DNA of 61,660 bases from an uncultured Elusimicrobium sp. Lineage in GTDB: Bacteria > Elusimicrobiota > Elusimicrobia > Elusimicrobiales > Elusimicrobiaceae. This document shows positions 326 through 61,549 of this stretch, piece after piece. Below the pieces are notes generated by a model that saw only the letters and a list, made by a program, of their open reading frames with translations, had not been told where the DNA came from and did no database searches. The position numbers were made by a program, and so were the translations under genes. Where the stretch lies: positions 1 through 61,660 of the forward strand of contig CACXER010000007.1 in the NCBI GenBank assembly GCA_902766765.1, read 5' to 3'. The stretch's first letter is position 1; every line of letters starts with the position of its first letter.

Positions 326-398
326 GCCAAGATAGCTCAGCTGGTAGAGCAATCGCTTCGTAAGCGATAGGTCCGGGGTTCGATCCCCCGTCTTGGCT
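326..398 (+). tRNA. tRNA-Thr (anticodon CGT)
   Basis: A full cloverleaf can be drawn. The acceptor GCCAAGA pairs with TCTTGGC, the D-arm is GCTC/GAGC, and the anticodon stem ATCGC/GCGAT encloses the loop TTCGTAA with anticodon CGT. The T-arm is CCGGG/CCCCG around TTCGATC. It reads ACG threonine codons. CCA is not encoded. A terminator hairpin follows at once, and a structured element follows the hairpin; that element carries the reverse complement of this tRNA's T-arm (see findings). Confidence 0.96.
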
Positions 399-404
399 GG
401 AATT

Positions 405-434
405 AAAAAAGCACCCATCAGGGTGCTTTTTTAA
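405..434 (+). terminator. Rho-independent terminator after tRNA-Thr
   Basis: The stem AAAAAAGCACCC / GGGTGCTTTTTT with an ATCA loop ends in a T-run, 7 nt after the tRNA. Confidence 0.9.
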
Positions 435-437
435 TTT

Positions 438-716
438 CACTCAAGACAGGGCACAAACTGCTTTGTGCCCGTGGGGGATCGAAGCCCGCAGCGATGTTTT
501 TGTTTGAGCGCGCGTAAGCCGCGAAAGGCAAAAACCGCGAGGGCGGGCCCGGGTAAAAGCCCGCAAAGCCTTGCGGGCGTATCAATAAGCGTTGCCGAAG
601 GCAAGGTTAATCCCGTTAGGGATTTAACCGTCAGGAAATTTATGCAGGGCGATCCCGAAAAAGTCCCTCTTTTTGTGAGCACTCAAGACAAGGCACAAAC
701 TACTTTGTGCCCGTGG
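438..716 (+). repeat. tRNA-linked structured element, copy A
   Basis: This non-coding stretch holds several hairpins. A 37-bp sequence at 438-474 recurs at 680-716 with 35 of 37 bases the same. Each copy carries a hairpin (GGCACAAA/TTTGTGCC). Between the copies lie CGCAGCGATG (489-498), ACCGCGAG, and a TCCCGTTAGGGA hairpin near 611-622. The same order of motifs follows tRNA-Arg on the other strand (46480-46616), so the two are members of one family. Bases 473-483 are the reverse complement of the T-arm of the adjacent tRNA-Thr (379-389). The open frames here have no start signals and do not look like protein. The role is unknown. Confidence 0.7.
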
Positions 717-728
717 ATTGGTCAGTCT

Positions 729-31709: not shown

Positions 31710-31723
31710 ATTCTTAAACGATA

Positions 31724-32254
31724 TTAAGGCAACACATAATAATTGTGACCGCCACCCGTCGTTTCCAACTCAGTAGCCCTTTCTATATCAGCACAAAAAT
31801 TGGTCGTGTCGCTGATGGGTTGTATACAGTATATATTTCCATCGGGAAATCTAGAAAATCCTCTCCCGCGATATTTCCCTGTCTTCCACAACCCCAACAC
31901 AGATACGCTGGCAGTAGTGTTACAATTTAAAATAATTTCAAAATCTGTAGCCGAACGACTGGTATCTGTACCGCAAACCACATAACCCGAAAATGGACTT
32001 GCTTGCGGAGTAAGGGGCAAGTCCAACGAAAGTTCATCAAAATTGCCGGCATATACACCATTGGCTAAAAAGAATTCATCTTCGGCTTGCCCGATACTTT
32101 TAAGGATCGTTTTTATTTGTGTGTTCCTACTTTTCCATACCGCTTTTTGATATTGCGGCAGAGCCACCGCAGCTAAAATACCGATAATTAAAACCACTAC
32201 TAATAATTCAATGAGTGTAAAACCATTTAATTTGCCCAATCTGGTGTTTTTCAT
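31724..32254 (-). CDS. Type IV pilin-like protein 3
   Basis: This 176-aa prepilin has a longer leader (MKNTRLGKLNG) before FTLIELLVVVLIIGILAAVA, then LPQYQKAVWKSRNTQIKTIL. The region AEDEFFLANGVYAGNFDELS, seen in similar form in several copies here, opens the globular part. Cys pairs lie at about 100/120 and near the end. Single-gene unit. Confidence 0.88.
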   Translation of the reverse strand: MKNTRLGKLNGFTLIELLVVVLIIGILAAVALPQYQKAVWKSRNTQIKTILKSIGQAEDEFFLANGVYAGNFDELSLDLPLTPQASPFSGYVVCGTDTSRSATDFEIILNCNTTASVSVLGLWKTGKYRGRGFSRFPDGNIYCIQPISDTTNFCADIERATELETTGGGHNYYVLP

Positions 32255-45392: not shown

Positions 45393-46280
45393 TTACCCTC
45401 TGGGGTGAAACTTCTTATGCTTGTTTTTGAGGTCTTTAACGTCCAGGTGCGTGTAAATCTGCGTCGTCGTTAAATTGGCGTGGCCGAGCATTTCTTGCAA
45501 ACTGCGCAAGTCCGCCCCGCCTTGCAGTAAATGTGAGGCAAATGTATGACGGAATAAATGCGGGTGTAAAGGTCGCGAAATGTTGGCTTTTCGCCCAAGC
45601 GCAGCCAGATCCCGCCACACACTCACGCGGCTTAGTTTCTTACCGCGATTATTCAAAAAAACTTCGGAGTCCACCTCTTTACCCACGAAATGCGCCGTAC
45701 GCAACGATAAATACTCTTTGAGCCGTTGGCAGCACGCCGGATGAATCGGCACAAAGCGTTGTTTTCCCCCCTTGCCAAACGCCAAAATCCACCCTTCGTC
45801 CGTATTGATATTTTCCAAACGTAGCCCCAATAATTCACTCACGCGCAGCCCCGCCGCATATAAAAGTTCCACAATTGTAAGCGTGCGCACTTCATCAAAT
45901 TTTTCCGCCGGATACGAAAGCAACCGCTCCATTTCTTCGCGCGTGAGTTGTTCCGGAAGAGAAGCCGGTAATTTAGGCGATTTTAGAAACCGCGTCGGGT
46001 CATCTTGGATACGTTGCTCCAAAAGCAGAAATTTATAAAAACTTTTCACGGCTTCCATTTTGCGAAACACACTCGCCGCCGATAGCCCTTCCACATTTTT
46101 AAGTTGGTAATTATACTGATCTATCAGCCGGTCGGTAACGTCTTGCGGTAACACTTCGTTTACTTCGCAATATTCTAAAAAGTGCTGCACGTCGGACGCA
46201 TACGCCGCCTGCGTATTTTTAGACAACTGCCGCTCAAACGATAAGTGGTTTACAAAATCTTCTAAAAGTACCCTATCCAT
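45393..46280 (-). CDS. xerD: XerD-type tyrosine recombinase
   Basis: This 295-aa enzyme has the catalytic set R146 (AAGLRVSELL), H241 and R244 (HPHLFRHTF), H267 (LGHANL) and Y276 (TTTQIYTHL). Size and motifs match XerC/XerD, which resolve chromosome dimers at dif. It could also be used by integrase-less mobile elements. The start MDRVLLEDF is chosen because homologues begin here and the longer frame runs into the tRNA-linked element. A TATAAT lies exactly 6 nt before the ATG and no ribosome site is present, suggesting a leaderless mRNA. Confidence 0.92.
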   Translation of the reverse strand: MDRVLLEDFVNHLSFERQLSKNTQAAYASDVQHFLEYCEVNEVLPQDVTDRLIDQYNYQLKNVEGLSAASVFRKMEAVKSFYKFLLLEQRIQDDPTRFLKSPKLPASLPEQLTREEMERLLSYPAEKFDEVRTLTIVELLYAAGLRVSELLGLRLENINTDEGWILAFGKGGKQRFVPIHPACCQRLKEYLSLRTAHFVGKEVDSEVFLNNRGKKLSRVSVWRDLAALGRKANISRPLHPHLFRHTFASHLLQGGADLRSLQEMLGHANLTTTQIYTHLDVKDLKNKHKKFHPRG

Positions 46281-46292: not shown

Positions 46293-46479
46293 GAAAAATT
46301 TAAGCCATGGGGTTTTCAAACTAAAATGTTCTAATGCTAGGCGCGCGCCCCTAATTGCTTCAAAGAAAAAAGCCTTATCCCTAGGCACGCCCAAGGGAAA
46401 GATACTCACGCTATCTGACCGAGGGCGTAACAACGAGACAAGGTTTTTTACGAAGAAGAAATACCCCCGGCGGAGGTTG

Positions 46480-46616
46480 CCTTCCGGTAAAATTCCTAAC
46501 GGAATTTTCCTGCAGTCCGGGCTCGCGGTACTCGCCTTGCGGCTCACAAGTTCGCACGCAAACTCGTACATCGCTGCGCCTTTCAACTCCCGCCGCACAC
46601 CAAGCAGTTGGTGTGC
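46480..46616 (-). repeat. tRNA-linked structured element, copy B
   Basis: On the minus strand, after tRNA-Arg and its terminator, come the hairpin GCACACCAA/TTGGTGTGC (46595-46616), the reverse complement of this tRNA's own T-arm (46582-46595 against 46668-46681, 14 of 14), CGCAGCGATG, an AGCCGCAAGGC segment, ACCGCGAG, and an AATTCCGTTAGGAATT hairpin with ACCG after it. The order is the same as in copy A after tRNA-Thr. The stems differ in sequence but still pair. Low-similarity sequence with more hairpins continues to about 46360. Confidence 0.7.
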
Positions 46617-46631
46617 TCCGGGACCAAAAAT

Positions 46632-46655
46632 AAAAACCCGCCAAGGCGGGCTTTT
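46632..46655 (-). terminator. Terminator after tRNA-Arg
   Basis: AAGCCCGCC/GGCGGGTTTTTA stem on the minus strand, 7 nt past the tRNA. Confidence 0.8.
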
Positions 46656-46661
46656 GAATTT

Positions 46662-46735
46662 TACCCCCGGCGGGAGTTGAACTCGCAACCTCTTCCTTAG
46701 GACGGAATCGCTCTATCCAATTGAGCTACGGGGGC
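46662..46735 (-). tRNA. tRNA-Arg (anticodon CCT)
   Basis: A cloverleaf with acceptor GCCCCCG/CGGGGGT, D-arm GCTC/GAGC and anticodon loop GTCCTAA reads AGG codons. Two stem mismatches are visible: A-G at the base of the anticodon stem and A-C in the T-stem. The tRNA lies only 5 bp after the sigma-factor stop codon, so it is probably cut out of the sigma mRNA. Confidence 0.93.
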
Positions 46736-47922: not shown

Positions 47923-48050
47923 TCAAATTTTCCGCCAAACGCCACCGTTATCTGACCATATAAAAGGGCTGTTCGCAGGCGCAACAACACTATTATAGTG
48001 AAAAGAGCAGAGAGATGATTGAACTCAATGACAGGTAATCTATTACGAAA

Positions 48051-48599
48051 TTAAAAATAATAGATATTCCAATTCTCGTGAGCAAGCGGACTTGTTTTTT
48101 GGGTAGCATTCTTACAAAGTTGATTGGCAAAATTATCGCTTGGAGTCGCGTAACACGCCCGTTTATTATTCCAAGATTGCTGATTGCTTCCTGCATCACT
48201 GTAAGCAAAAATCAACAAAACTCCGGATAGACGGGGATCTTGAGAGTACACAGAATTTGGCTGTCCACTTACTAATTTGTTGAGTTTCAATGCAAAAACT
48301 CCTCCAGCCGCAGTAGTAACTGTTTTGTTTTGACTAGACAATGTGCCTTCTATCCCTATATCTAAATTTTCCCAATCGTTCGTATACTCTCCGTTGGCCA
48401 AAAAATACCGTTCTTCCGCTTGTACCGTCGCATTAGAAAGTGTAATAAGGTGCGTCATGCGCGCTTTCCCCACCGCTATTTTATATTGCGGCAAAGCCAC
48501 CGAGGCCAGGATGCCGATGATTAACACGACCACCAATAATTCTATTAACGTAAATCCTTTTTCGTCTAAAACACCCAACAAACTACTTTTGTTTTTCAT
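48051..48599 (-). CDS. Type IV pilin-like protein 5
   Basis: This 182-aa prepilin has a leader of about 15 residues (MKNKSSLLGVLDEKG) before FTLIELLVVVLIIGILASVA, then LPQYKIAVGKARMTHLITLS and AEERYFLANGEYTNDWENLD. Two cysteines near the end (ACYATP and LCKNAT). It is divergent from pilin 6; the 156-bp space holds both promoters. Confidence 0.88.
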   Translation of the reverse strand: MKNKSSLLGVLDEKGFTLIELLVVVLIIGILASVALPQYKIAVGKARMTHLITLSNATVQAEERYFLANGEYTNDWENLDIGIEGTLSSQNKTVTTAAGGVFALKLNKLVSGQPNSVYSQDPRLSGVLLIFAYSDAGSNQQSWNNKRACYATPSDNFANQLCKNATQKTSPLAHENWNIYYF

Positions 48600-60975: not shown

Positions 60976-61006
60976 GAGAATGTAAAAGTTTCTCAAGGAG
61001 CGTTCC

Positions 61007-61549
61007 ATGGTCTTACGTAAACAAGGTTTTACATTAATGGAAATATTGGCAACCATTTTGATTATCGGCATCCTAGCAGCGATTGCTGTACCGGAATACC
61101 AGACTGCCGTGGCTAATAGCCGTTTAAGCACCGTCATGGGAAACGTAAAAACTATTGCAGACAATTTAGAAGTGTATCACCTATCTATGGATTCGTACCC
61201 TACAAACGGACTGACTAATTTGGATATAGAAATTTCCGGCTGTACCCTTACCAACGGAGTCTATAGTTGTACCAACGGTACCGTCTATGCTTTTGGTATC
61301 AGCGCTACAGACCAACCTGTCGGCGGTTTCTTGGGAAACAAACAAGGGTTGGCATATATTCAATACTTAAAAGAAGAACCTACCATTACCAAACGCAATC
61401 AACGGGAATGTTGGGCCGATTCCAGCAATGAGTTGGCTAACCGCGTATGCTTGAATTTGGAAGGAGTACGACAAGGTACTAACACTTGGCGTAGCGATAG
61501 CGAACTCAATCACTCAAATTCGACGTGGAACGTCTATATCTTGCCGTAA
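61007..61549 (+). CDS. Type IV pilin-like protein 7, divergent
   Basis: This 180-aa prepilin has a more divergent helix than the others (FTLMEILATILIIGILAAIA, then VPEYQTAVANSRLSTVMGNV). Glu-5 is kept. Later parts have VYSCTNGT and two further cysteines (ECWAD, VCLNLE). It may be a minor pilin or pseudopilin rather than a major one. AAGGAG precedes the ATG. Confidence 0.85.
   Translation: MVLRKQGFTLMEILATILIIGILAAIAVPEYQTAVANSRLSTVMGNVKTIADNLEVYHLSMDSYPTNGLTNLDIEISGCTLTNGVYSCTNGTVYAFGISATDQPVGGFLGNKQGLAYIQYLKEEPTITKRNQRECWADSSNELANRVCLNLEGVRQGTNTWRSDSELNHSNSTWNVYILP

Follow-up and report, generated by a model that had tools for sequence, protein, structure and literature searches.

The closest described system to the element reported here is the tyrT/tyrV tandem repeat of E. 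coli, annotated as the RtT (RttR) sRNA (Rfam RF00391), which has the same plan and an unrelated sequence. Like our element, RtT lies behind a tRNA gene, and its unit, which is repeated in tandem in variable copy number, includes the tRNA 3' end copied directly together with bases downstream of it. It also holds a reverse complement of the tRNA T-arm (GGGGAAGGATGAGAA), with the GGATGAGAAG variant also present in several of our elements, and a hairpin core between this complement (T') and the direct copy (T copy). In E. coli NC_000913.3 the RtT/tyrV repeat at 1287066-1287243 (L283) bears the reverse complement of the tRNA-Tyr T-arm. The antisense T-arm is GCGGGGAAGGATGAGAAGC and the T copy is AATCCTTCCCCCACCACCA, and the repeat folds with T' and the T copy as a closing stem. 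The antisense T-arm scores 16 against a shuffled maximum of 12, and no mention of it was found in the literature searched. The RtT repeat was found in 4692/5426 E. coli genomes, at a median of 3 places. RtT is reportedly released by tRNA-processing enzymes. To our knowledge, this kind of target-matched tRNA repeat has been represented so far only by RtT, an isolated E. coli case.

The differences from RtT are also clear. RtT has no H1 hairpin with a CTGC loop, and the core sequences are unrelated. RF00391 gave no match in the source genome of our locus and, among 14 controls, matched only E. coli; our covariance model, R1, gave no hit at the E. coli RtT locus. Because the sequences are unrelated, the likeness is one of plan and not of membership. 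RtT was examined at one locus (tRNA-Tyr), whereas our family covers at least 13 amino-acid types and two phylum-level lineages.

Other known systems share parts of this plan. Integrative elements that use tRNA 3' ends as attB also have a direct repeat of the tRNA 3' end and leave the tRNA intact. Our family differs from them: it lacks genes and an integrase, carries its target in antisense, serves all tRNA types with one core, and has a variable right end. REP/BIME palindromes (RAYT/Y1) are likewise small, dispersed, imperfect palindromes, presumably mobilised in trans, with a strand-specific fold. Unlike them, our elements occur only at tRNA 3' ends, carry a target-matched arm, and live in a genus where Y1 is missing from 14/15 tested genomes. 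Integron attC and CTX-phage attP sites are proposed as an analogy only, on the basis of a hairpin, bulged bases, a variable terminal structure, and arms that would rebuild a double-stranded site, as the folded attC and attP sites do; the difference is that the target of our element is tRNA DNA. By eye, the H1 hairpin has AAC and no GTT partner (the attC boxes are RYYYAAC/GTTRRRY).

The window, which is the whole 61,660-nt stretch of Elusimicrobium DNA that was analysed, contains a copy of the element behind tRNA-Thr and another behind tRNA-Arg. The parts of the Thr copy are listed below, T being the tRNA sequence from the T-loop to the 3' end.

326..398, + strand: tRNA-Thr(CGU) (ARAGORN; Rfam RF00005, 69.5 bits)
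379-398, + strand: T (tRNA-Thr T-loop to 3' end), partner of T', within tRNA-Thr
404..434, + strand: intrinsic-terminator hairpin of tRNA-Thr, at the tip of the long T-terminator-T' hairpin (sequence; DNA fold of 379-660)
441..448, + strand: outer part of T', an imperfect complement of the acceptor 3' strand (sequence; family statistics)
449..470, + strand: H1 hairpin, GGGCACAAACTGCTTTGTGCCC, loop CTGC with AA/TT closing, between the acceptor and T-stem parts of T' (pair counts; sequence)
472..483, + strand: inner part of T', exact over 473-483 (sequence; shuffle test)
484..544, + strand: core domain P3, GCCC...AGCGATGT-stem-ACCGCGA...GGGC (alignment A1 and pair counts; RNA fold z = -5.1)
547..650, + strand: P4/H3 domain, GCCC...CCGTCAGG...GGGC, enlarged by a nested hairpin insertion (R1 model; fold; sequence)
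651..657, + strand: remnant of a direct copy of the tRNA-Thr T-loop/T-stem, CGATCCC (sequence comparison)
660..717, + strand: truncated second unit with a T-rich hairpin, CAAGACA (684-690) and an H1-like hairpin at about 691-711 (sequence; array comparison)

As a first-pass annotation of the window had stated, 473-483 (GGGGGATCGAA) is the exact reverse complement of the tRNA-Thr T-arm at 379-389 (TTCGATCCCCC). The complement resumes beyond the ACTGCT hairpin and into the acceptor stem (441-448), which that annotation had missed. By itself the Thr match is modest, with 8/1000 shuffles of the downstream 330 nt scoring equally well. A DNA-parameter fold of the sense strand 379-660 gave a single long T-terminator-T' hairpin from which H1 branches off (z = -10.4). 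The direct copy of the tRNA 3' end, likewise missed by that annotation, is reduced here to the remnant at 651-657 and is followed by the partial second unit. A T-box, a riboswitch or another known ncRNA was rejected for lack of an Rfam match: a gathering scan of the window and an E<=5 scan of 320-760 returned only tRNAs and sub-threshold chance matches.

The Arg copy lies on the opposite strand.

46662..46735, - strand: tRNA-Arg(CCU), host of the second copy (tRNA scan)
46626..46655, - strand: tRNA-Arg terminator (sequence)
46618..46624, - strand: outer part of T', GTCCCGG (position read beside H1 in the sequence)
46594..46617, - strand: H1 hairpin (sequence)
46582..46593, - strand: inner part of T', GCGGGAGTTGAA, complement of the tRNA-Arg T-arm (shuffle test; sequence)
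46520..46581, - strand: core P3 (alignment A1; sequence)
46479..46519, - strand: P4/H3 domain with a CGTTAG loop (alignment A1; sequence)
46462..46479, - strand: complete direct copy of the tRNA-Arg 3' end, CAACCTCCGCCGGGGGTA (sequence comparison)

The order noted earlier for both copies was confirmed: an ACTGCT-loop hairpin, the T-arm complement, GCAGCGATG, ACCGCGAG and a CGTYAG hairpin, with the complement fitted to the Arg T-arm in the Arg copy. The Arg complement, CGGCGGGAGTTGAA, is stronger than that of the Thr copy, with a 14/14 match equalled in 0/1000 shuffles. R1 scored the Thr copy at 98 bits and the Arg copy at 131 bits, the Arg copy being in the training alignment and the Thr copy outside it. 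For both T-arm complements the decisive support comes from the family-level data given below and not from the single copies. Beginning about 180 nt past the tRNA-Arg element, an ORF at 45393-46280 (- strand) has a tyrosine-recombinase C-terminal motif (HLFRHTFASHLL...LGH...TQIYTH) that is Xer-like by eye.

Across the family the order is tRNA, terminator, outer T', H1 with its CTGC loop, inner T', core P3 (AGCGATGT...ACCGCGAG), P4/H3 with a GTYA loop, and a copy of the tRNA 3' end. Outer T' is an imperfect complement of the acceptor 3' strand, and inner T' is the complement of the T-loop and the T-stem 3' strand. H1 splits T' at the acceptor/T-stem junction, where the D and anticodon arms leave the tRNA. 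The direct copy starts at T-loop position 56 of the tRNA. After it there is often another terminator and then another unit, full or partial.

The element was detected by blastn in 34/37 genomes of the same genus. R1, which was built from 78 copies (alignment A1), matched in 37/37 of these genomes with 1-27 matches each, and in most sister-family genomes, where the matches were mostly weaker. The source genome has 12 R1 matches, of which about nine are full elements. When GTDB genomes were searched with a core pattern, hits came from Elusimicrobia (Elusimicrobium and Avelusimicrobium of the gut, and genomes from digester and sediment) and from Patescibacteria (Kaiserbacteria, Lloydbacteria, Zambryskibacteria, Moraniibacteriota, Campbellbacteria and others). 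R1 matched in 16/16 Patescibacteria genomes (1-20 each), as expected because these genomes were picked via a pattern hit. The element was not found in IMG/VR, phage records or plasmid records.

Strong R1 hits begin about 40-60 nt past a tRNA 3' end. In genome G014, 13/16 hits have a same-strand tRNA 3' end no more than 130 nt away (typically 41-58 nt), against a chance fraction of 0.002; of the other three, two are the second units of tandems and the third is a partial hit, 137 nt away. The hit lists of G029 and G028, judged by eye, show the same adjacency. G029 has one strong orphan, a copy of the Asp type that a serine-recombinase island has parted from tRNA-Asp. Occupancy is patchy, with roughly 14/44 tRNAs bearing an element in G029 and 4/46 in G028 (6 hits). 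In most Elusimicrobium loci the tRNA is separated from the element by a terminator, and tandem units contain a further one. No match to a sigma-70-like promoter was found for the element. We read it as a dispersed, non-autonomous, non-coding unit of about 150-200 nt resident at tRNA 3' ends.

T' was compared with the adjacent tRNA in 116 distinct copies representing 13 amino-acid types. Inner T' reached a score of 9.55 with its own tRNA; with permuted tRNAs the score was 6.25 (sd 0.15, maximum 6.62 in 200 permutations). For outer T' (the acceptor part) the scores were 5.63 and 3.34 (sd 0.10). In these and the further T' statistics below, related copies are counted as independent; the effect sizes are large, and the p-values are inexact. 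At least 8 contiguous complementary bases are present in the T' of 78/116 copies. Many of the remaining copies have six, because GA replaces TC in T'; this GA faces G57-A58 of the tRNA, and a tandem G-A pair is possible there. Where the tRNA and the 3' copy differ, T' equals the tRNA in 135 cases, the copy in 11, and neither in 20. The core behaves differently from T'. Grouping of cores by genome or by tRNA does not prevail either way (27 vs 30), and core sequences are common to different tRNA types and genomes with no clear loyalty, whereas T' goes with the tRNA. The proposal that the family keeps its shape while tracking the neighbouring tRNA is thus supported by these copies, by the covariation described below, and by the second phylum-level lineage. 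Elements lacking the complement, which the first-pass annotation had named as counter-evidence, form a minority, namely several Patescibacteria copies (L127/L298, L137/L296, L299, L304 and L173) that have a long H1-like hairpin. Some Patescibacteria copies have neither T' nor the T copy, and many elements of the family show truncation or drift of the 3' copy.

The hairpins are well maintained. In the pair counts, 98.0% of cells are paired and 15 pairs show double-sided changes. Double-sided cells number 274 against 75 in shuffles, for a covariation score of 0.370 against 0.103. H1 has 128 cells changed on both sides and 0 changed on one side, and G-U intermediates are nearly absent from its variable pairs. 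The non-Watson-Crick cells are G-A (36, in tandem), G-T (10), A-C (3) and A-A (3), and these counts identify the tRNA-sense strand as the folding strand. In inner T', changes that keep a wobble pair occur at 32/632 and the reverse transitions at 4/710 (p = 1.7e-7), so that pairing on the sense strand is under selection.

The T copy reaches the tRNA 3' end in 65/116 copies. Beyond the two T copies, the sequence is identical for at least 15 nt in 23/65 and clearly different (local score below 12) in 28/65. A fixed target-site duplication was therefore rejected, and one simple duplication model fails to cover all copies. The tRNA-Ser(UGA) locus is empty in G028 (L207) and occupied in G023 (L255), and in the latter a 32-bp direct repeat extends from the T-loop to a point past the tRNA end. 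Arrays finish in partial units with variable ends, and one locus (L237) holds a core-less remnant that retains the terminator, T' and H1. On these data the likelier element is one that uses the T-loop of the tRNA gene as the point of insertion, or as the start of a duplication, and keeps the tRNA and its terminator whole.

Other repeats were seen at tRNA 3' ends. A sequence of ~265 bp with inverted ends GGGTTGGCAAGGTG...CACCTTGCCAACCC lies inside the T' of elements in G010 and the source genome, G000 (L049:2273-2540; L054:2300-2570; L058), each time after GGGAATC/GGGATT. It looks like a second small mobile element that targets the first. The tRNA-Ala(CGC) locus of G028 (L223) has tRNA 3' end and terminator repeats in tandem units of about 115 bp, and tRNA-Arg(GCG) (L214) has others; the inserts are unrelated, and no T-arm complement was seen by eye in L223 or L214.

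Of the two guesses in the first-pass annotation, the mobile element agrees more closely with the data than the RNA that would act on the tRNA precursor. It is favoured by the direct copies of the tRNA 3' end together with the terminator, by units that are tandem or partial, by the patchy occupancy, by the intervening terminator and by the lack of a promoter match; neither guess is proven. Our preferred reading, to which we give roughly balanced chances, is that the element integrates at tRNA 3' ends, non-autonomously, via a folded single-strand site. In this reading the unit consists of T (the tRNA from the T-loop on), the terminator (ext), T' split by H1, and the two-domain hairpin core. It would spread by integration at the T-loop, each unit bringing or duplicating a tRNA 3' end and terminator, which would leave the host tRNA intact. 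The strand-specific pairing of T' with T on the tRNA side suggests a folded single strand as the recognised form. With tRNA-sense polarity, T:T' pairing would rebuild a double-stranded image of the target, and this requirement would hold T' matched to the tRNA. In its fullest form the reading makes the family a new class of bacterial mobile element, directed to tRNA genes by the antisense copy of its target: a host recombinase of the Xer type would meet the tRNA 3' end as a double-stranded image in the folded sense strand, the address would be rewritten when a core changes tRNA type, and RtT would be a stranded relative; we advance this tentatively and consider it somewhat unlikely as a whole. 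Roughly split, an integrating element of some kind stands near even, and the specific combination of a folded single strand with Xer is doubtful.

Several enzyme families were considered as the mover. Y1 (IS200-like) transposase matched only in G002 among 15 tested genus genomes, with 0 matches in G010, G014, G029, G018 and G017. IS110 (DEDD) transposase was found in 0/13 tested genomes, and reverse transcriptase (RVT_1) in 0/7 tested Elusimicrobium genomes and 2/6 Patescibacteria. RAYT, IS110 and reverse transcriptase were rejected, as they are absent from tested high-copy genomes. Tyrosine recombinases, housekeeping Xer type included, are present in 22/22 genomes checked, and four Patescibacteria have a single one each; their presence is uninformative because it is universal. 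No dedicated recombinase was found among the Y1, IS110, reverse transcriptase and tyrosine recombinase families tested, so that Xer is a suggestion by elimination among these families and not a finding. Neither an ORF-bearing version with an integrase of its own nor a specific adjoining gene family was seen. Several observations count against an integrating element, the missing dedicated recombinase among them. No excised or circular form was seen; the right end varies, as that of a classical att site does not; outer T' is imperfect, and some Patescibacteria copies have no T' and T copy; there are no phage, plasmid or IMG/VR matches; and the model has no account of how T' is re-specified at a new tRNA type.

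The sense-strand pairing, the covariation and the RtT parallel suit an RNA equally well, so that a structured, RtT-like RNA retains weight, although we think it rather unlikely. Here tRNA read-through transcripts would contain the element. T' would pair with the tRNA 3' half in the precursor and thereby either block maturation of the 3'-extended tRNA or create a target for RNase III. Alternatively, T' would close a tRNA-like acceptor/T-stem helix with the 3' T copy, which would lead to release of the element by tRNA-processing enzymes. The G-U and tandem G-A pairs, the nearly complete pairing, the RNA fold of the core, the position of H1 where the D and anticodon arms branch and the annotation of RtT as an sRNA all agree with this. 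The terminator between tRNA and element, present also within tandem units, argues against it, as do the lack of a promoter match, the few hits for the many tRNAs of G028, and the scarcity of G-U intermediates in H1. A strict closing helix between T' and the T copy has lost ground, since it is the tRNA that T' follows where the tRNA and the copy differ. Near-perfect stems with hardly any one-sided changes, as in H1, are what hairpin-templated correction predicts, and around the terminator T and T' make up a single long palindrome. The family could then be a mutational by-product, in which an inserted hairpin resembled the universal T-loop by chance, template switching at the T-terminator-T' quasi-palindrome keeps correcting T' to the neighbouring tRNA, and slippage gave tandem units. 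We regard this as quite improbable: the acceptor part of T', which lies closest to the hairpin tip, matches least well, the reverse of what this account expects, the deviations of inner T' are biased to wobble and G-A pairs that correction would not yield, and the conserved core and constant T-loop boundary require an independent cause.

An integron-like system, in which the elements would be tRNA-linked attC-like sites that capture genes beside tRNAs, was first suggested by L069, where a 292-aa ankyrin-repeat-like ORF (1620-2498) is flanked by two Asp-type elements. A 15-kb island between tRNA-Asp and an Asp-type element (L262; G029:C1:262500-281500) also fits the idea. This island encodes a 540-aa serine recombinase-like protein and has the junction AAACTACAACCACCGT, with similar ones in L069 and L079. 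The idea is weakened because the junctions, which differ from the element (AAACTACA..CCGT), fit serine-recombinase islands. In addition, no integrase family tracks the element and the adjoining gene families are unspecific, which makes cassette capture very improbable. Pilin cassettes were rejected, since type IV pilin-like ORFs are abundant and not significantly enriched near elements (24/119 vs 8/77, p = 0.08). Such ORFs, very common in these genomes and often near tRNAs, lie in the window at 2100-2631, 31723-32254, 48050-48599 and 61006-61549.

The element family is real, widespread and target-matched, and as a family it is apparently undescribed. Our literature searches, which covered part of the literature, found no description of such an element. 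The earlier statement that none has been described has to be qualified, given that the tyrT repeat (RtT) of E. coli is built on the same plan and likewise contains an antisense T-arm. Our elements give the RtT repeat a family-level frame. With a constant core and an antisense arm fitted to each tRNA, the family must have either an integration mechanism that is addressable or a general role as a tRNA-linked RNA.
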